This document shows, piece by piece, positions 5,888-13,581 of a stretch of 14,629 nucleotides of DNA (its first letter is position 1; each line of letters starts with the position of its first letter). A model generated the notes under the pieces. That model worked only from the letters and a program-made list of their open reading frames with translations, had not been told where the DNA came from and made no database searches. Source of the stretch: Desulfuromonas sp. SDB (lineage in GTDB: Bacteria; SDB-A). The position numbers and the translations under genes are program-made. The stretch covers positions 1 through 14,629 of the forward strand of contig LKUE01000223.1 of NCBI GenBank assembly GCA_001412365.1. Reading direction: 5' to 3'.

Positions 5888-6109
5888 ATGACCGCACGTT
5901 GGTTAATTATTATAGGAATTTTGTTGATAGGACTTGGTTTGAGTTTTCATTTCGCTCCCTGGCTGTTCAACTGGTTTGGCAAATTACCCGGCGATATCAG
6001 AATTGACACTGACAACTTTAAGTTCTATCTGCCTTTAGGTTCAATGATTGTTATCAGTATTGTTTTAAGTTTAGTGTTGACTTTAATTTTCAGCTTTTTC
6101 AAATCCTAA
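5888..6109 (+). CDS. DUF2905 family small membrane protein
   Basis: A 73-residue protein with two hydrophobic helices (residues 4-24 and about 49-70) flanking the conserved GKLPGDIRID...FYLPLGSMIVIS core that defines DUF2905. Members are about 70 residues long and have no assigned function, so none is given here. It is probably an inner-membrane hairpin. It begins 6 bp after the CoA-transferase stop and is likely translated from the same transcript. This is the last gene of the AT-rich backbone before the cassette-like region. Confidence 0.88.
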   Translation: MTARWLIIIGILLIGLGLSFHFAPWLFNWFGKLPGDIRIDTDNFKFYLPLGSMIVISIVLSLVLTLIFSFFKS

Positions 6110-6124
6110 ACTGATTTAAAAATA

Positions 6125-6152
6125 TTTTACTTAGAGAATGGGAATTTATAAT
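6125..6152 (+). promoter_or_regulatory. Candidate sigma-70-like promoter
   Basis: TTTTAC at 6125-6130 and a perfect TATAAT at 6147-6152 are separated by 16 bp. It lies just after the DUF2905 stop and about 30 bp before the start of a short ORF with a good ribosome binding site. AT-rich DNA produces such matches by chance, so confidence is limited. Confidence 0.35.
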
Positions 6153-6180
6153 TTAGGTGATGAAGAAAGGAAGATAAAGT

Positions 6181-6267
6181 ATGGCAGAAGATGAATTTAA
6201 ATTTTTTGTATTGTCTTCTATCAATTCAAAGAACAGCCCTCATGTCAGAAGACAAAGGATATTATAA
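6181..6267 (+). CDS. 28-residue ORF, unknown or remnant
   Basis: ATG at 6181 is preceded by AAGGAAG (6167-6173, 7 nt spacing) and by a plausible promoter at 6125-6152, an arrangement better than many full genes nearby. The peptide starts MAEDEFKFFVLSS and ends with a basic run HVRRQRIL before TAA. I do not recognise it. It may be a short regulatory or leader peptide, or the surviving N-terminus of a backbone gene truncated when foreign DNA entered to its right; translation past the stop in this frame meets another stop almost at once. The inverted repeat 6211-6219/6247-6255 lies wholly inside it. Confidence 0.3.
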   Translation: MAEDEFKFFVLSSINSKNSPHVRRQRIL

Positions 6268-6352
6268 ATTTGCTGAATTTGAATCCTGATAAACATAAAA
6301 AGGCCAGAAATCCTTGTGTACAAATAAATTTGTTCGATTTATAATTTTATTC

Positions 6353-6380
6353 TTAAGACACTAATACGGTAAAATATATA
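6353..6380 (+). promoter_or_regulatory. Weak promoter candidate upstream of the cassette array
   Basis: TTAAGA (6353-6358) and TATATA (6375-6380) with 16 bp between them, pointing toward the cassettes. If functional it could act like an integron Pc promoter, but both boxes are imperfect and lie in AT-rich DNA. A perfect TATAAT at 6340-6345 is a competing -10 whose nearest -35-like sequence (TTGTGT, 6314-6319) is 20 bp away, too far to be convincing. Confidence 0.22.
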
Positions 6381-6403
6381 TGTTGCAAGCGCGCTGCGCA
6401 CGC

Positions 6404-6551
6404 CGACAACGCTCGAATCGAGCAAACTCCAATGAACTTGTCGCCGCGCGCTGATTCGCGAGCGACAACAAGTCATTGGAGCGGAAATGTTCGTCGCTTA
6501 CAGACTTGCGGTCTGACGCTCCGGGCATGCCGCTCAACTCGGCCGTTAGGA
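6404..6551 (+). repeat. attC-like recombination site 1
   Basis: The right end is an R' box GTTAGGA (6545-6551), with predicted cleavage after G6545. The L' arm CCGCTCAA (6530-6537) pairs with TTGGAGCGG (6476-6484) except for one extra G, the extrahelical-base signature of attC bottom strands. The matching left AAC is at 6467-6469 (CGACAAC), giving an 89-nt core at 6463-6551. The same CGACAAC box also occurs at 6404-6410, followed by an arm at 6408-6423 that pairs partly with the right end, allowing a 148-nt alternative. Inner hairpin: CAGAC...GTCTG near 6501-6515. The L'-spacer-R' text GCTCAACTCGGCCGTTAG is very like classical 59-base elements. Confidence 0.72.
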
Positions 6552-6563
6552 CTTAAGTATAAA

Positions 6564-7256
6564 ATGGCAACATTTGATGTAATAGAAACAAAAATTACAA
6601 ATATCAAATCCATTATGCTTGCTTACTCGACCGATGGCAGAACCAACGACCAGCCACAACAGTATCAAGAGGTATATATAGAGCTTGATATTCTATTAGA
6701 AGATGCAGGCTATGCTAACCCAAACAAGTATAAGACTATCGAACAATTCTGGAAAGATTGCGGTGAAACTTGGGCATCGCGAAGAGAGCTTATTGGGAAC
6801 ATATATGCTGATATTCTTTTTGATATTGGCAGGAAAAAGAAAAAATTGAAAGAACCGCGAAATTGGAAAAATGCAAATGATTCTTTAACCGATAAGCTTT
6901 CCCCCGTCAGGTCGCAATGGTTAAAAGCAATGAATTTTATCCATGCCTCACCACCGGACTATGAAAATTCGATTAAGGAGTCAGTTAATTCGATTGAATC
7001 CTGTCTAATGATATTGCTGAACCAGCCAAAAGGAACGCTTGGAAAGTTGATAAAAAATCAAGAGGTTGATGCTGATATTGGTAAAATAATTAGTCAAGTT
7101 TATGGTCTCTGTAGTGACAAAGATTTTGTACGCCATGGTGGTACACGGAATCAGTCAATTGGAAAATTCGAAGCTGAGTTCTTTTTAGATTTTGCTGCAT
7201 CATCTATTATTTATATAAAAGGGAAATTAACCGAATGTCCTGACAAGGCAAATTAA
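6564..7256 (+). CDS. Cassette 1: Abi_C/HEPN-like putative abortive-infection protein
   Basis: A 230-residue protein. The start is ATG 6564, 18 nt inside the cassette; extension to an upstream ATG at 6432 would translate the attC site and is rejected. The C-terminal half (from about residue 132) follows the helical pattern of abortive-infection C-terminal/DUF7014-type HEPN domains: YENSIKESVNSIESCLMILL, TLGKLIK, then SDKDFVRHGGT with Arg190-His191 and FEAEFFLDFAASSIIYI. The N-terminal half is helical, basic (GRKKKKLKEP) and unrecognised. Known relatives are phage-defence or toxin RNases or RNA-binding domains; whether this one is catalytic is uncertain because the usual R-x4-6-H spacing is not clear. 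Its TAA lies inside the left box of the next attC. Confidence 0.72.
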   Translation: MATFDVIETKITNIKSIMLAYSTDGRTNDQPQQYQEVYIELDILLEDAGYANPNKYKTIEQFWKDCGETWASRRELIGNIYADILFDIGRKKKKLKEPRNWKNANDSLTDKLSPVRSQWLKAMNFIHASPPDYENSIKESVNSIESCLMILLNQPKGTLGKLIKNQEVDADIGKIISQVYGLCSDKDFVRHGGTRNQSIGKFEAEFFLDFAASSIIYIKGKLTECPDKAN

Positions 7257-7299
7257 CTCGAATGCAAATTCCAATGCGCTCCATTTGCATCGGTTATTT
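7251..7299 (+). repeat. attC-like recombination site 2 (short)
   Basis: A compact 49-nt palindrome: left box AATTAAC (7251-7257), left arm CGAATGCAAAT (7259-7269), 13-nt loop, right arm ATTTGCATCG (7283-7292), right box GTTATTT (7293-7299). The arms pair over 10 bp with a single extra A on the left side, matching the extrahelical base seen in attC sites. The central spacers are shorter than in classical sites, so this could be a degenerate attC. The stop codon of the first cassette ORF (7254-7256) lies inside the left box. Confidence 0.65.
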
Positions 7300-7345
7300 G
7301 CAGCGATAAAATGATAAGAGATCATGACATATGAGGATAAAGACA

Positions 7346-7975
7346 ATGATTGCATCTAATAATGATTTGTCACTAAAAAATAAATGGCTTGAAGTATACA
7401 ATTCGATAGTACGGCTGAAATTTTATACATACCTTGAAATGACAAACAGTCAACTCATTAAAGAATTAGACCGTGAATTCACTCTTTTTGTAAATAACTA
7501 TGTTGGTATTCAAGATAATAATTTAAGGTTTTTCGGTGGAAATACATTAATTGGCTTCTCCTATTTGGTACTGGTTAGAATGTTTGAATGCCTAAAAAAG
7601 CATTTCGACAAAACGCAAATCGATGAATTATTCAAAACCTCAGATTGGCAGGCAATAGGCATTAATCAATTTTCCGATTTTACAAATAAATATCGGATTA
7701 CTATTGCTTATCTTGCTGAGACTAAAAATAACAGAACTAGATACTATAACTCTGATACAGAAAAATTAGTCTTTTTCATGAACAAGATACGGAACTCAAT
7801 TAGTCATTATAGATATGAGCATCCGGACATGTTGTCGATTAGATTGACAGACGTAAAAATAAAAAAAAAGCAAGAGAAAATTGAACTTGATATAACAATG
7901 CCGTATGCAGGATTTATAAATTTTTGCGCAGACATAGGATGCATCATTAATGACACCATAAAAGATCGTTTATAA
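7346..7975 (+). CDS. Cassette 2: HEPN-motif protein (putative RNase/toxin)
   Basis: A 209-residue protein from ATG 7346, chosen because GAGG at 7333-7336 sits 9 nt upstream; ATG 7331 in the same frame gives 214 residues with a weaker AAGAG site. It is helical throughout, with MNKIRNSISHYRYE (R149 to H154 counted from 7346), which fits the R-N-x3-H (R-x4-6-H) catalytic motif of HEPN ribonucleases. The C-terminus is a KIKKKQEKIELDITM strand segment and a final helix. HEPN proteins with this motif are common in toxin-antitoxin and abortive-infection systems, cutting RNA on activation; that role here is inferred. No separate antitoxin ORF is visible in the cassette. The TAA at 7973-7975 lies inside the left box of the following attC. 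Confidence 0.7.
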   Translation: MIASNNDLSLKNKWLEVYNSIVRLKFYTYLEMTNSQLIKELDREFTLFVNNYVGIQDNNLRFFGGNTLIGFSYLVLVRMFECLKKHFDKTQIDELFKTSDWQAIGINQFSDFTNKYRITIAYLAETKNNRTRYYNSDTEKLVFFMNKIRNSISHYRYEHPDMLSIRLTDVKIKKKQEKIELDITMPYAGFINFCADIGCIINDTIKDRL

Positions 7976-8094
7976 CAACACCATGCACAGGGATTCGCAG
8001 GGTCGGGCAGTTTTAACTTTTGTGTAATTTATTGCAAAACGTGCCTTTGCAGAGGTATCATTACTCTGCTCACTCGCGATGCTGATAGTTATAT
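7970..8094 (+). repeat. attC-like recombination site 3
   Basis: Left box TTATAAC (7970-7976) and right box GTTATAT (8088-8094) are complementary at six of seven positions. Inner arms CACCATGC (starting 7979) and GCGATGCTG (8076-8084) pair as CA.CAT.GC with one mismatch and a one-base offset. Total length is 125 nt, within the attC range. The internal part is less well paired than in site 4, so this site alone would be uncertain; its position between two unrelated ORFs and its ends carry the call. Confidence 0.6.
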
Positions 8095-8126
8095 TTTGAT
8101 ATTTATGGAAATAAAAAGGGTTTTAA

Positions 8127-8870
8127 ATGTCAGTAACATATAGCAGGATAAATCAAATTTTTATTTCAAGGCTCCGAAGACTTGAAGAATCTATCAGGGA
8201 ATCTTCTAATATCGTTCATGATGCCACCAAAGGTGCATTAAGAGAGGCTTACCTAAGAGATTTTTTAAACGATATTATGCCTCCAAATCTATCTATAGGA
8301 TCAGGATTTATTTGTGATTGTTTTGGCACCATTTCACCACAAATTGACTTCATACTTGCAGAAAAAAACCAAATTCCATCAATTGCACTAATGGAAAATA
8401 TAGCTTTAATTCCAGTTGAGACAGCATTGTTGGCAATAGAAATGAAATCAATTATCAAATCGAACACCAAAGATCAATTGCAAAAACAATATGATGAATT
8501 TAATAAAATGAAACCTGTTGTTGTTGTCCAACCCGGAGAAGAGATAGAGCAAACAAATAACTTTCCAATACTCCTAAGCCTAATTGCACTTGAATCTGAA
8601 GTAAAAAAAGAAACACTTGTTGAATGGTTTAAAAGTATACCAACACTGCTCAACATTTGCATAATAGGTAAATACTCTATCAAAATAAAAAAATATGGCA
8701 TCAGTGATTGTGAAATCATCAAAGGTGCTAATTATATTGAAACTTTAAATTACTTTTCTGTAGTGATTAATAACTGCTATGATAATTTAGAAAAAAGAAG
8801 GAAATTAACATACGGACGGGGTTTTGGTCGTTCATGGATTCCTTACATCGTCGGACATCAAAATGTGTAA
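8127..8870 (+). CDS. Cassette 3: DUF6602-like PD-(D/E)xK nuclease-fold protein
   Basis: A 247-residue protein; ATG 8127 follows AAAAAGGG with about 6 nt spacing. The N-terminal region has HDATKGALREAYLRDFLNDIMPPNLSIGSGFICDCFGTISPQIDFIL and then VETALLAIEMKS, a pattern matching DUF6602. In it, Glu40, Asp74 and the Glu105-x-Lys107 pair have the order and spacing of a PD-(D/E)xK nuclease core (E...D...ExK). The C-terminal half is unassigned and ends in a basic, aromatic tail (KRRKLTYGRGFGRSWIPYIVG). Nuclease activity is an inference from residue spacing only. DUF6602 proteins are poorly characterised and often sit near restriction or defence genes, as here. The stop is 13 nt before the left box of the next attC. 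Confidence 0.72.
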   Translation: MSVTYSRINQIFISRLRRLEESIRESSNIVHDATKGALREAYLRDFLNDIMPPNLSIGSGFICDCFGTISPQIDFILAEKNQIPSIALMENIALIPVETALLAIEMKSIIKSNTKDQLQKQYDEFNKMKPVVVVQPGEEIEQTNNFPILLSLIALESEVKKETLVEWFKSIPTLLNICIIGKYSIKIKKYGISDCEIIKGANYIETLNYFSVVINNCYDNLEKRRKLTYGRGFGRSWIPYIVGHQNV

Positions 8871-8883
8871 TAAGAATTAAAAA

Positions 8884-9013
8884 ATATAACAATTGACTTT
8901 ACTTGACCTCAAGGGCTATGTGGCTTTTCGAGTTTTGAAACTCGCAGTAAGTTATTTTGGTTAGTTAAAATTTGTGCCCCGCAACTTGTGGCAGGTAAGC
9001 AAAAACGTTATAC
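8884..9013 (+). repeat. attC-like recombination site 4 (best formed)
   Basis: Left box ATATAAC (8884-8890) and right box GTTATAC (9007-9013) pair at six of seven positions. Inner arms TTACTTGACCTCAA (8899-8912) and TTGTGGCAGGTAA (8986-8998) pair along their whole length with one extra A on the left arm, one G-T wobble and one mismatch. The spacers between box and arm are 8 nt on both sides. An internal perfect hairpin (CGAGTTT-TG-AAACTCG, 8929-8944) lies in the variable part. Symmetry, one extrahelical base and size (130 nt) all fit attC. It is the last site before the GC-richer restriction operon, whose first ATG is 28 nt after the site. Confidence 0.72.
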
Positions 9014-9040: not shown

Positions 9041-12000
9041 ATGAATTCAAATTTATCATTTATCACCAACGAAGAAAATCAGAGCCTCAAAGAGAGATTC
9101 AGGACTCTCATCAAGGACACGTCTTTTTTTGATTGTCTTGTTGGATACTTTTACTCCAGCGGTTTTTACACTGTCTATCCAGCCCTTGAGAATACCGACA
9201 AAATACGAATCCTGATCGGCATCAGCACAAACCAGCAAACTTTTAACATGATGGAGCAGGCAAATAAACAAACACAATCCGTGTTTGATTTTTCCCATGC
9301 CGAAGCCAAACAGGAAATTGAAAATCTTATCGAAAACGAAATGGCTGATTCCGAAGACAACCGAAACGTTGAAGAAGGCGTTTATACCTTCATGGATTGG
9401 ATCAAAAACGGGAGGCTGGAAATCAGAGCTTACCCTTCTCAAAAGATCCATGCCAAACTCTATATTATGACTTTTCGAGAAGGCGACCGCGACACCGGCC
9501 GGGTCATCACCGGTTCAAGCAATTTTACCCAGTCGGGTCTGGTCGATAATCTGGAATTCAATGTGGAGTTGAAACGCCCCGAAGATTACGAATTTGCATT
9601 GAAAAAATTCAACAAATTGTGGGAAAGAGCAGTCGATGTCAGTGAAAAATATGTGCAGACGATACAGGAAAAGACCTGGTTGACCAAAAACATATCGCCC
9701 TACCAGCTCTACTTGAAATTCCTTTATGAATATTTCAAGGATGAACTCAGCCAGGGGGATGAGGTTTTCATTAAATATCTGCCTCAGGAGTTCAAGAAGC
9801 TGGAATACCAGGAGCAGGCGGTTTTGAATGCCAAAAAAATTCTTCTGGAATATGGCGGTGTGTTTATCTCTGATGTTGTCGGGCTCGGCAAAACCTACAT
9901 CTCAGCCATGCTTGCCGCTCAACTGGACGGCAGAACCCTTGTCATCGCGCCGCCCGTTCTTTTGGAAAAATCCAATCCGGGTTCCTGGCTCAATGTATTT
10001 TCAGACTTCAGAGTACCCGCGGATTTTGAATCACTCGGAAAACTGGATGATCTTTTAAGCAGGGGGACAGATAAATATACCAATATCATCATAGACGAAG
10101 CCCACCGTTTCCGCACGGAAACAACCATCACCTATGAAAAACTGGCGGAAATATGCCGGGGTAAGCGGGTGATCCTGGTGACGGCGACGCCTTATAATAA
10201 TAGACCTCAGGATATCCTGAGCCTGCTCAAGCTGTTTCAGAAAGCCCAAAAAAGCACCATCCCGAATCTTCCCGACCTGGAATCCTTTTTCGGAAATCTC
10301 GAAAAGAAACTAAAGAAACTGGATCGGAAGAAAGACTATGATGAATACATCAGCACCGTCAAAAGGAACGCACGGGAAATCCGGGACAAGGTATTAAAAT
10401 ACTTAATGGTTCGCCGCACCCGGACCGAAATCGAAAAATATTTTAAAAAGGATATTGAGGAGCAGGGGTTGAAATTTCCCCAAGTCGAAAAACCAGCACC
10501 CCTTTTTTATGAATTGAACGACAGGGAAGACGAAATATTTAATAACACCATTGACCTGATCGCCAATAAGTTCAGATACGCCCGTTACATGCCTATGCTG
10601 TATTATGAAGGCAAGATCGATCAACTTGAAGCGCAGTCCCAGCTTAATATGGGGCGGTTTATGAAAATCCTGCTGGTCAAGCGGCTGGAAAGCAGTTTTT
10701 TCGCCTTCCGCAATTCGGTGAACAGATTCATATATTCCTATGAAATGTTCCTCAATGAATTGAATAACGGATTTGTATATGTTAGTAAAAAGCATACCAA
10801 CAAGATATTTGAAATGCTGGAAAACGACGATGACGAAGCGATTCAACGGCTGATTGATGAAGGCAAGGCGGAAAGATATGACAGTAAGGACTTCAGGGAT
10901 GACCTGAAAACAGATCTTGAGCATGACCTTGAAATCTTAAGAGAGATTAAACGTCTTTGGAAGCAGGTGCGACGGGATCCCAAATTGTTGCGTTTCAAAG
11001 ATGAGCTTTCCCGAAACAGCATATTAAATGACAGTCACCTGATTATCTTCACCGAATCAAAAGAAACTGCCGGTTACCTGTATAAAAACATAGATCTGCA
11101 ATATCCCGGAAAAGTTCTTTTATTTACCGGGGATTCAGGCGAATCCGTTCGGGATAAAGTTATTGAAAACTTTGATGCCCGGGCTCGGCATAAAAAGGAC
11201 GATCACCGCATATTGGTTTCCACCGAAGTTCTCTCCGAAGGCGTTAACCTGCACCGCGCCAATGTGGTGATCAATTATGACATTCCCTGGAACCCGACCC
11301 GCATGATGCAGCGGGTAGGCCGCATCAACCGTGTGGATACGCCTTTTGATACTATCTACACCTTTAATTTTTTCCCCACGGTACAGTCCAATGACCAGAT
11401 TAAATTAAAAGAAGCCGCGGAAGGCAAAATCAACGCCTTTCTAACCCTGCTTGGCGGGGACGCGGAGCTGTTGACCGAAGGGGAACCGATCGGTTCCCAT
11501 GAACTTTTCGACCGTCTGATTTCAAGAAAAACAGTGGAAGGAGACGGCGAAACAGAAGAAAGCGAATTGAAATACCTGCACGCGATACGGGAAATCAGAG
11601 AAAACCACCCGGACCTCTTTGAGCAGATTAAGCGACTTCCAAAAAAAGCCCGCACTGCCAAAGCAAACAAGGATTACCCGGACGCGTTGATTACCTACTT
11701 CCGGCGAGGAAAGCTGCAAAAGTTTTTTATGGCGCATGCTGTAAACGCAGCCGTAGAACTGGACTTCATGGCCGCCGCCACTCTTCTTGAGAGCAAGTCG
11801 GATGAAAAAAAGAAAAACCTACCCGCGCATCTATATGATCTTCTGGATAAAAACAAAGAAGCCTTTATCATCGCCACCACTGAGGAAATGGCGGAACCAA
11901 AAAAGAAAGGGGGCCGGGACAGCACTGCCAATATACTTCGGATTCTGAAAGCAACGCTGAAAAACACCCAAATATTCACCGATGATCAGGAACTCTACCT

Positions 12001-12262
12001 GAAAAAGGTATTGACCCAGCTTGAGGAAGGCGGTCTGCCCAAACATACCGCCAAAAACACCTTAAAAGCGCTTAACGGCCTTGGCCAGGATCTGGTTAAT
12101 CCCTTCAAGGTTCTGGCGGTTTTGCAGAAGCACATTCCCAAACGGCTACTGCAAAGCCATTACGCGGAACAAAATCCGGACCTATGCGACAAGGGTGAAG
12201 TCATACTATCATTATACCTGTCTGCATGCGGGTACGAGCAGGCAGGTCCGGCAGAGGAATAA
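9041..12262 (+). CDS. PLD-domain SNF2-type DEAH helicase
   Basis: A 1073-residue protein. Domains: an N-terminal phospholipase D-like nuclease domain (about 1-210) with a single HxK half-site, IHAKLYIM (His137, Lys139) and GSSN at 158-161; then a superfamily 2 helicase with LEYQEQAV (Q-like), DVVGLGKT (Walker A, 278-285), IIIDEAHR (DEAH at 352-355) and VTATP (381-384); then a C-terminal RecA domain with LIIFTESKETAGYL near 667, STEVLSEGVNL near 728 and QRVGRINR near 757. About 300 further residues are helical and charged. One HKD motif implies dimerisation or a degenerate site. It leads an operon with AlbA_2 and Eco57I-type genes, so restriction or anti-phage DNA translocation is the likely role. 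The last residues (LSACG onward) are encoded by an interspersed palindromic repeat. AAAGG lies about 12 nt before the ATG. Confidence 0.88.
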   Translation: MNSNLSFITNEENQSLKERFRTLIKDTSFFDCLVGYFYSSGFYTVYPALENTDKIRILIGISTNQQTFNMMEQANKQTQSVFDFSHAEAKQEIENLIENEMADSEDNRNVEEGVYTFMDWIKNGRLEIRAYPSQKIHAKLYIMTFREGDRDTGRVITGSSNFTQSGLVDNLEFNVELKRPEDYEFALKKFNKLWERAVDVSEKYVQTIQEKTWLTKNISPYQLYLKFLYEYFKDELSQGDEVFIKYLPQEFKKLEYQEQAVLNAKKILLEYGGVFISDVVGLGKTYISAMLAAQLDGRTLVIAPPVLLEKSNPGSWLNVFSDFRVPADFESLGKLDDLLSRGTDKYTNIIIDEAHRFRTETTITYEKLAEICRGKRVILVTATPYNNRPQDILSLLKLFQKAQKSTIPNLPDLESFFGNLEKKLKKLDRKKDYDEYISTVKRNAREIRDKVLKYLMVRRTRTEIEKYFKKDIEEQGLKFPQVEKPAPLFYELNDREDEIFNNTIDLIANKFRYARYMPMLYYEGKIDQLEAQSQLNMGRFMKILLVKRLESSFFAFRNSVNRFIYSYEMFLNELNNGFVYVSKKHTNKIFEMLENDDDEAIQRLIDEGKAERYDSKDFRDDLKTDLEHDLEILREIKRLWKQVRRDPKLLRFKDELSRNSILNDSHLIIFTESKETAGYLYKNIDLQYPGKVLLFTGDSGESVRDKVIENFDARARHKKDDHRILVSTEVLSEGVNLHRANVVINYDIPWNPTRMMQRVGRINRVDTPFDTIYTFNFFPTVQSNDQIKLKEAAEGKINAFLTLLGGDAELLTEGEPIGSHELFDRLISRKTVEGDGETEESELKYLHAIREIRENHPDLFEQIKRLPKKARTAKANKDYPDALITYFRRGKLQKFFMAHAVNAAVELDFMAAATLLESKSDEKKKNLPAHLYDLLDKNKEAFIIATTEEMAEPKKKGGRDSTANILRILKATLKNTQIFTDDQELYLKKVLTQLEEGGLPKHTAKNTLKALNGLGQDLVNPFKVLAVLQKHIPKRLLQSHYAEQNPDLCDKGEVILSLYLSACGYEQAGPAEE
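12216..12247 (+). repeat. Coding palindromic repeat, copy A (32 bp)
   Basis: Arms ACCTGTCTGC (12216-12225) and GCAGGCAGGT (12238-12247) pair at nine of ten positions, with a G-T wobble at the tenth. It matches copy B2 (14154-14185), also 32 bp, at about 22 positions, including CCTGTCTGC and TGCGG. It encodes LSACGYEQAG at the very C-terminus of the helicase and ends shortly before the next gene's ribosome binding site. Confidence 0.7.
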
Positions 12263-12264
12263 AT

Positions 12265-13581
12265 ATGCCCGGTGAAGAAAACCACAATATCGAATACAAG
12301 CAGAAATGGAATGATGATTGCCTGAAAGCCATCTCCGCGATGGCAAATGCCAAAGGTGGAAGGCTTTTTGTCGGTCTCGACGACCAGGGGCATCCGGTCG
12401 AACTGAAAAATACAAAAAAACTGCTGGAAGACATTCCTAACACCATTAAGAACAGATTAAACATCTTGTCCATAGTAAAACTTGACAAAAAAGCCGGACA
12501 AAAGATCATCTGTATAACAATTTTGCCGTCTTCTATTCCGGTCTCGTTTAACGGCAAATACTACATCCGGAGTGGCAGTACAGTTCAAAAACTGCAGGGA
12601 AAGGAACTGGCCGACTTCCTTTTGAGCAAATCCGGCATTCCATGGGATAATTTTGTCGAAAAACATTCCACTTTCAAAGAACTTGAAGAGTCCACCATTG
12701 ATGAGTTTAAACGGTTTGCAACTGACCGAATTCCAGGGATTATCAACGAAACCAATTATTCAATGCTTCTGGACAAACTGAACCTTCAGAAAAATAAACA
12801 ATTGAAACGGGCTGCTGTTCTGTTGTTCGGCTCCGATCCGCAACGGTATTACAGCCATGCGGTGGTTAAAGTAGGCAAGTTTCTGACAGATACCGACATT
12901 CAAACAACCGACATTGTCAAAGGTAATCTTTTTCAGCAAGTCGAGAACACTTTGGAAATTCTTCGCGCAAAATACCTGCAAAGCCCTATTTCTTTTGAAG
13001 GCATCCATCGCAGAGACATTCTTGAATATCCTTATGAAGCCTTACGGGAGGCCGTCATCAATGCGCTGATTCACCGGGATTATCATGGTTTTTCACAAAT
13101 TCAAATACGGGTTTATCCGGACAGAATGATTATGATGAACGAAGGCGGTCTGCCGCCTGAAATCACAGTTGAAGACCTAAAAAGAAACCATCTTTCCAAA
13201 CCGCGTAACAAACTCCTCGCTGATGTTTTTTATTTTGCCGGATTTATCGAAGCGTGGGGCCGGGGAACGTTGAAGATTGTTGAAAAATGCCGCGACCAGG
13301 GTTTACCGGAGCCGGAATTCCACAATGATCACGGGGTAATGTCTGTTATTTTTTATAAAGATAAATGGAACGAAGAGACCCTAAAGAGGCTTGGGTTGAA
13401 CGATCGGCAGATTAAGGCTGTTTACTATATCAAGGAGCACGGCAAGATTACAAATTCAGATTATCAGAAGATTAACAATGTATCCGAACGAACAGCCTTG
13501 CGTGATCTTGACGATTTAATTCGAAAGGAGATTGTTCTGAAAAAAGGACAAAAGAAAGGGACCCATTATAACTTGGCGTAA
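12265..13581 (+). CDS. AlbA_2 (Schlafen-like) / GHKL ATP-binding / winged-helix protein
   Basis: A 438-residue protein. The start is ATG 12265, two nt after the helicase stop, with AGAGGAA about 7 nt upstream; a longer in-frame start at 12226 lies inside the helicase gene and is rejected. Domains: AlbA_2/Schlafen AAA-4 (about 5-125) with ENHNIEYKQKWND, AISAMANAKGGRLFVGLDDQG and YYIRSGSTVQKL; a GHKL-type ATPase-like C-terminal domain with EAVINALIHRDY (N box, about 262-273), MNEGGLPPE and EAWGRGTLKIVEKC; then a winged helix (378-438) with SERTALRDLDDLIRKEIV. Such proteins are found as putative transcription regulators or as parts of defence loci. The winged helix and the repeat cluster just downstream suggest it controls the next gene. 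Confidence 0.88.
   Translation: MPGEENHNIEYKQKWNDDCLKAISAMANAKGGRLFVGLDDQGHPVELKNTKKLLEDIPNTIKNRLNILSIVKLDKKAGQKIICITILPSSIPVSFNGKYYIRSGSTVQKLQGKELADFLLSKSGIPWDNFVEKHSTFKELEESTIDEFKRFATDRIPGIINETNYSMLLDKLNLQKNKQLKRAAVLLFGSDPQRYYSHAVVKVGKFLTDTDIQTTDIVKGNLFQQVENTLEILRAKYLQSPISFEGIHRRDILEYPYEALREAVINALIHRDYHGFSQIQIRVYPDRMIMMNEGGLPPEITVEDLKRNHLSKPRNKLLADVFYFAGFIEAWGRGTLKIVEKCRDQGLPEPEFHNDHGVMSVIFYKDKWNEETLKRLGLNDRQIKAVYYIKEHGKITNSDYQKINNVSERTALRDLDDLIRKEIVLKKGQKKGTHYNLA

Follow-up and report, generated by a model that had tools for sequence, protein, structure and literature searches.

The stretch of DNA analyzed here, hereafter the window, is the whole of contig C223 (14,629 bp). It contains three small ORFs on the same strand that alternate with inverted repeats of AAC...GTT ends, one after each ORF and one before the first, as had been described in a sequence-only reading of this DNA. 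That reading placed the start of the feature at 6404, but the array starts to the left of this position, its first elements being a promoter and an attI-like site at 6317-6385 (Table 1). The left flank includes glycosyltransferase-like genes, a CoA hydrolase/transferase gene and a DUF2905 gene, and the right flank an HKD/SNF2 helicase gene followed by an AlbA/HATPase gene. The source genome (3.14 Mb in 433 contigs, 98.7% complete and 3.9% contaminated) belongs to a rarely sampled phylum, and the genomes compared (n=4) were the source genome and three sister genomes.

Table 1. Features of the cassette array, in positions of the window
Feature	Position	Strand	Remarks
Whole array	6317-9013	+	Pc-type promoter, attI-like site, gene-less cassette, three gene cassettes
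Pc-like promoter TGTACA-17-TATAAT	6317-6345	+	Consensus scan 10/12
attI-like site TAATACGGTAAAATATATATG^TTG	6361-6385	+	Array head, no adjoining intI
Gene-less mini-cassette, about 160 bp	6383-6545	+	76% identical over 107 columns to the gene-less cassette of C253
attC site 1	6463-6551	+	R2 30.5 bits, E 1.3e-4 in 36 kb; 4/1/5 geometry, extrahelical G
ORF1, 230 aa, PDC-S32 / AbiJ-family-like	6564-7256	+	PADLOC PDC-S32 4.5e-20
Site 2, degenerate attC-like palindrome	7251-7299	+	Overlaps ORF1 stop codon
ORF2, 214 aa, possible HEPN RNase	7331-7975	+	RNSISH motif present
Site 3, weak attC	7970-8094	+	Overlaps ORF2 stop codon; geometry 5.3, p~0.006 for gap
ORF3, 247 aa, DUF6602 / NucC-like PD-(D/E)xK nuclease	8127-8870	+	Pfam DUF6602 6.7e-19
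attC site 4, last in array	8884-9013	+	Geometry 11.0, p~0.002; R2 13.6 bits, E 0.69

The three products had been read as suggesting HEPN/Abi, HEPN RNSISH and PD-(D/E)xK/DUF6602 functions. ORF1 and ORF3 matched defence families, while ORF2 gave only a sub-threshold HEPN match (Pfam pEK499_p136, E 0.0043; 17.2 bits, under the 26.6-bit cut-off). In tblastn, ORF1 shared 28-31% identity with proteins of which several are annotated AbiJ-NTD4, the match covering part of these proteins. Besides DUF6602, ORF3 matched PD_DExK (1e-26) and NucC (2.6e-19) in PADLOC and the Serratia NucC structure 7zgv in the PDB (6.7e-10); its N-terminal about 160 amino acids match NucC, and QID...IEMK is present. Homologues of ORF1 were not found in viral contigs, and those of ORF2 were found neither in the plasmids nor in the viral contigs searched. 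AlphaFold models built without alignments had a pLDDT of 40.7 for ORF1 and 45.6 for ORF2 and were set aside. Judging from these family matches, some of the cassettes are probably anti-phage genes.

Directly past the last attC, the helicase and AlbA/HATPase genes occupy positions 9041-13581 and likely form a defence island beyond the array. The helicase gene at 9041 was considered as a fourth cassette and counted outside the array, because its expected R'' (GTATAAC) occurs only within a later ORF and because a scan of geometry scores detected no attC downstream of the gene.

Promoter, attI-like site and gene-less cassette

The head of the array was compared with that of contig C253, which encodes the single IntI of the source genome above the TIGR02249 curated cut-off (414 aa, 396 bits, intact). 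The window sequence TAATACGGTAAAATATATATGTTG was identical at 22 of 24 positions to the stretch of C253 that separates intI from its first cassette (shuffle p 0.002), and the attI motif occurred within three mismatches in only four places of the 3.14 Mb genome, with one occurrence in a backwards control. The R'' of the first C253 cassette (GCCCAAC) is the exact complement of GTTGGGC in the attI site, which, together with the rule that R'' matches the start of its own cassette (see below), identifies the GTT of attI as the crossover. The window promoter lies 37 nt upstream of this crossover, close to the 33 nt between the C253 promoter TTGACT-17-TATACT and the IntI-linked attI, and its offset was also close to those in IntI loci of other organisms. 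As the region contained three promoter-like matches in the consensus scan versus 1.5 +- 1.3 in shuffles, the scan by itself is weak evidence for the promoter. Four of the foreign IntI loci (L024, L025, L026, and L030) had a similar layout, with a TTGAC promoter and then an AT-rich stretch ending in ATGTT or CTGTT. A position weight matrix from the foreign attI sites alone ranked the window site 50 of 92,684 and was not discriminating, the matrix being too short to establish this site. By sequence, the window combines the marks of an attI site, namely a GTT crossover where the first cassette begins, a conserved upstream sequence, and a Pc-like promoter upstream. An intI adjoining attI, as in a complete integron, is absent from the window, where the upstream genes are those for the CoA hydrolase/transferase and DUF2905. 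Likewise, a profile search within contig C223 gave no IntI match, which agrees with the definition of a CALIN (a chromosomal integrase-less cassette array) as lacking an integron integrase nearby.

Between the attI-like site and ORF1 lies the gene-less cassette. The palindrome of site 1 had been drawn from near 6404; the attC comprises only its inner part, and the larger palindrome is mostly gene-less cassette.

Geometry and grading of the attC sites

An initial attC covariance model (R1), made from seven sites of C253 and C233, gave hits on independent contigs that carry IntI in other organisms, each oriented as in an array leading away from intI, but none at the four window sites. It was replaced by R2, built from 15 sites that include some from foreign IntI loci and none from the window. 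In addition, a log-odds model of site geometry was derived from 21 sites outside the window, with p values from dinucleotide shuffles per gap; 19 of these 21 training sites have exactly one extrahelical base, and most have 4-nt and 5-nt spacers.

Site 1 carries the canonical extrahelical base (AACAAGTCATT(G)GAGCGG / CCGCTC-AACTCGGCCGTT), shares the 4/1/5 geometry of most training sites, and had a geometry log-odds of 24.5 (shuffle p<=0.0005). Site 4 also fits the 4/1/5 arrangement, and its R'' (ATATAAC) is exactly complementary to GTTATAT, the start of the ORF3 cassette to which it belongs. The top geometry score apparently unrelated to cassette boundaries was about 7.4 in 193 kb of strand scanned, so site 4 stands above the background, while site 3 does not clearly do so. 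Site 2 failed the canonical geometry (-7.3, p~0.01), as its bulge is off the canonical position, and it appeared instead as a plain palindrome (p~0.003); its 49 nt are 84% identical to an intergenic stretch of C233. R2 matched neither site 2 nor site 3. On the combined results of R2, geometry and shuffles, site 1 is sound, site 4 is probable with moderate support, site 3 is weak, and site 2 is degenerate. When held against the general attC pattern (R''-L''...L'-R', AAC/GTT ends and a fixed extrahelical base), sites 1 and 4 conform, site 3 does so weakly, and site 2 does not.

The sequence-only reading, which counted four attC-like sites, was therefore upheld for site 1 and moderately for site 4. 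Its extra base was recovered in sites 1 and 4 and misplaced in site 2, and site 3, for which none had been noted, also fits one. The covariance-model hits at two sites that it called for were only just obtained, with models built here and with a marginal value at site 4. The description as an integron-like array without integrase held, given R2 hits at site 1 and marginally at site 4 and an IntI elsewhere in the genome.

The match of R'' to the start of its own cassette was significant among 13 cassettes (permutation p 5e-5) and remained so without the window, for the cassettes of C253, C233, and C348 (1e-4). Among the window cassettes, the rule was exact only for ORF3.

Integrase and related arrays in the source genome

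With R2, eight contigs of the source genome (seven besides C223) gave 14 attC hits in total. The three sister genomes of the phylum gave no hit, and they also had no ORF1, ORF2, or true IntI. The alternative that the ORFs form a conserved non-mobile operon is hence unsupported.

Contigs C253 (L012:7003-8692) and C348 (L054:4991-6343) overlap by 18 bases, and since their join yields a continuous 1018-aa type ISP restriction-modification enzyme, they very likely represent one array. Its order is intI, which reads away from the cassettes, attI, a TIR gene, a gene-less cassette, an AAA/OLD-like nuclease gene, a PD-T7-4 protein gene, DUF4062 and HATPase genes, the type ISP enzyme gene, DUF3800, a 107-aa ORF, ORF6N/PDC-S05, an internal promoter-attI copy, and a HerA-like gene. 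The internal copy (L054:2276-2354, minus strand) had an alignment score of 81, compared with a shuffle maximum of 35. It lies about 400 bp downstream of the ORF6N cassette; of this cassette's attC, R'' (CCTCAAC) was found and the right half was not detected. The C233 array contains two further attI-like copies (L013:3846-3897 and 5906-5957, minus strand), and an apparent attC deletion scar (GGTTAACAAGG/AGTGTTGATC) precedes the first of them. The attI of the window is thus not the only one apart from intI. On C184 (L066:3774-4411), an apparent lone GNAT-like cassette with one attC and an AT-rich left boundary is located between chromosomal lipoprotein genes, possibly an attG insertion at a non-attI site.

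The gene content of these other arrays was mixed. Defence-like genes included TIR, PD-T7-4, OLD-like, HerA-like, Fic, MazEF-like, and type ISP genes, and unrelated genes encoded a glyoxalase, a GNAT-like acetyltransferase, and proteins of the phosphotransferase and beta-lactamase folds, where the MazEF-like and GNAT-like labels are readings of translations. Because of this mixture, the earlier term defence-dedicated was an overstatement, and defence-rich is a fair description of the arrays. Identical contig ends were shared over 47 bases (L012:1-47 and the right end of L073) and over 54 bases (L054:1-54 and L067:1-54), and these ends probably stem from repeated elements at which the assembly was interrupted.

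Origin of the array and comparison with known integrons

The favoured explanation, with a probability of about 0.75, is that the window carries a CALIN which keeps its own attI and cassette promoter and on which the IntI of C253 would have to act in trans. Cassette insertion by this IntI at attI (G^TTG, about 6382-6385) would have built the array, and transcription from the adjacent promoter would proceed through the gene-less cassette, the AbiJ-like gene, and the possible HEPN RNase gene to the NucC-like nuclease gene. Site 1 is competent in appearance, while the apparent decay of sites 2 and 3 would pin their cassettes in place. Observed directly are the sites with their geometry, the attI match and an IntI in the genome; that the sites recombine, that the IntI acts in trans, that the genes are transcribed and that they counter phages is inferred from sequence. 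The explanation is favoured by the IntI above cut-off, the R2 hits, the 22/24 attI match, the shared gene-less cassette, the own-start rule, and the sister genomes without IntI, attC, ORF1, and ORF2. Against it stand the R1 miss, the E value of site 4, the lack of R2 hits at sites 2 and 3, the single exact own-start match, the unspecific foreign matrix, and the fragmented assembly, whose contamination means that the IntI and the window might derive from different strains.

The same anatomy would be left by an ordinary integron in decay, in which the intI to the left of attI was deleted in place and the Pc-attI remained with a decaying, immobile array. A proposal that CALINs in general are integrons in a degraded state has been made before. 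This account differs from the favoured one in origin and present activity, so that the probabilities of the two overlap, and it is a serious contender at somewhat below even odds. Loss of intI with retention of attI is the simplest route, and the degenerate state of sites 2 and 3 is consistent with it; however, a search of 6050-6420 for intI remnants gave nothing above noise between DUF2905 and attI, and the attI copies inside the other arrays show that attI can arise without an adjoining intI. Rather unlikely is that IntI inserted the cassettes at an attG-type target, a genomic site other than attI whose likeness to attI is coincidental. Integration at attG has been published (Loot et al. 2024, as cited in PMC12901181), and the lone cassette of C184 may be an example, but neither so high an identity to attI nor a promoter close to where Pc would lie should be required of attG. 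That no integron is involved, and that accessory defence genes merely stand in a row with unrelated terminator-like hairpins, would suit the weak sites 2 and 3 and an Rfam scan without a match, although the latter is expected for a DNA recombination site. This is very improbable in view of the site 1 E value from a model of other contigs, the attI match, the shared cassette sequence, and the IntI in the genome.

A further extension of the CALIN reading is tentative: the genome might hold a distributed integron, in which a single integrase would serve a number of Pc-attI docking sites, dispersed on the chromosome and within arrays and each able to take in and express cassettes, with attI copies moved by the integrase.

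The description as a CALIN carrying defence genes was mostly right. As in known CALINs, small genes on one strand are arrayed with attC-like sites, and an integrase is missing from the vicinity (PMC9024848, where the software threshold is at least two attC sites); unlike them, the array of the window keeps an attI-like site and a cassette promoter at its head. Since IntegronFinder detects no attI outside class 1 (PMC9024848), attI-bearing CALINs would go undistinguished. CALINs that are mobilisable in trans have already been described (PMC12444791). Anti-phage activity of cassettes is established for Vibrio chromosomal integrons (Darracq et al. 2025; Getz et al. 2025) and mobile integrons (Kieffer et al. 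2025), as cited in PMC12409362 and PMC12444791. These integrons similarly carry defence-like genes as single-gene cassettes, whereas the present genome belongs to another phylum, has short split arrays, and is known here from sequence alone. Size-reduced systems have been stressed for known integrons (PMC12409362), in contrast to the 1018-aa type ISP enzyme in the C253/C348 array.

Fragments of attI apart from intI also occur in delta-attI cassettes, where the delta-attI2 core AATAAAATGTT resembles AAAATATAAATGTT of the window (PMC12901181). Those cassettes belong to class 1 and 2 mobile integrons and replace an attC (PMC12901181), whereas the attI and promoter of the window head an integrase-less chromosomal array. 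The gene-less promoter cassettes of Vibrio superintegrons are likewise short, ORF-less, and upstream of gene cassettes (PMC11014356), while a promoter role of the gene-less cassette in the window is only putative. For multiple or orphan attI sites, a search of the open-access literature returned nothing directly on point. If an integrase acts in trans on some CALINs that retain a functional attI and promoter, several positions for cassette expression per genome would be possible. With this case, a genome with intI is also added for a phylum that is rarely sampled, and its arrays are rich in defence-like genes. The window is a somewhat unusual integron fragment and no new kind of system, its unusual character lying in an integrase-less array that appears to keep both its attI and its promoter, within a genome that has several putative attI copies.
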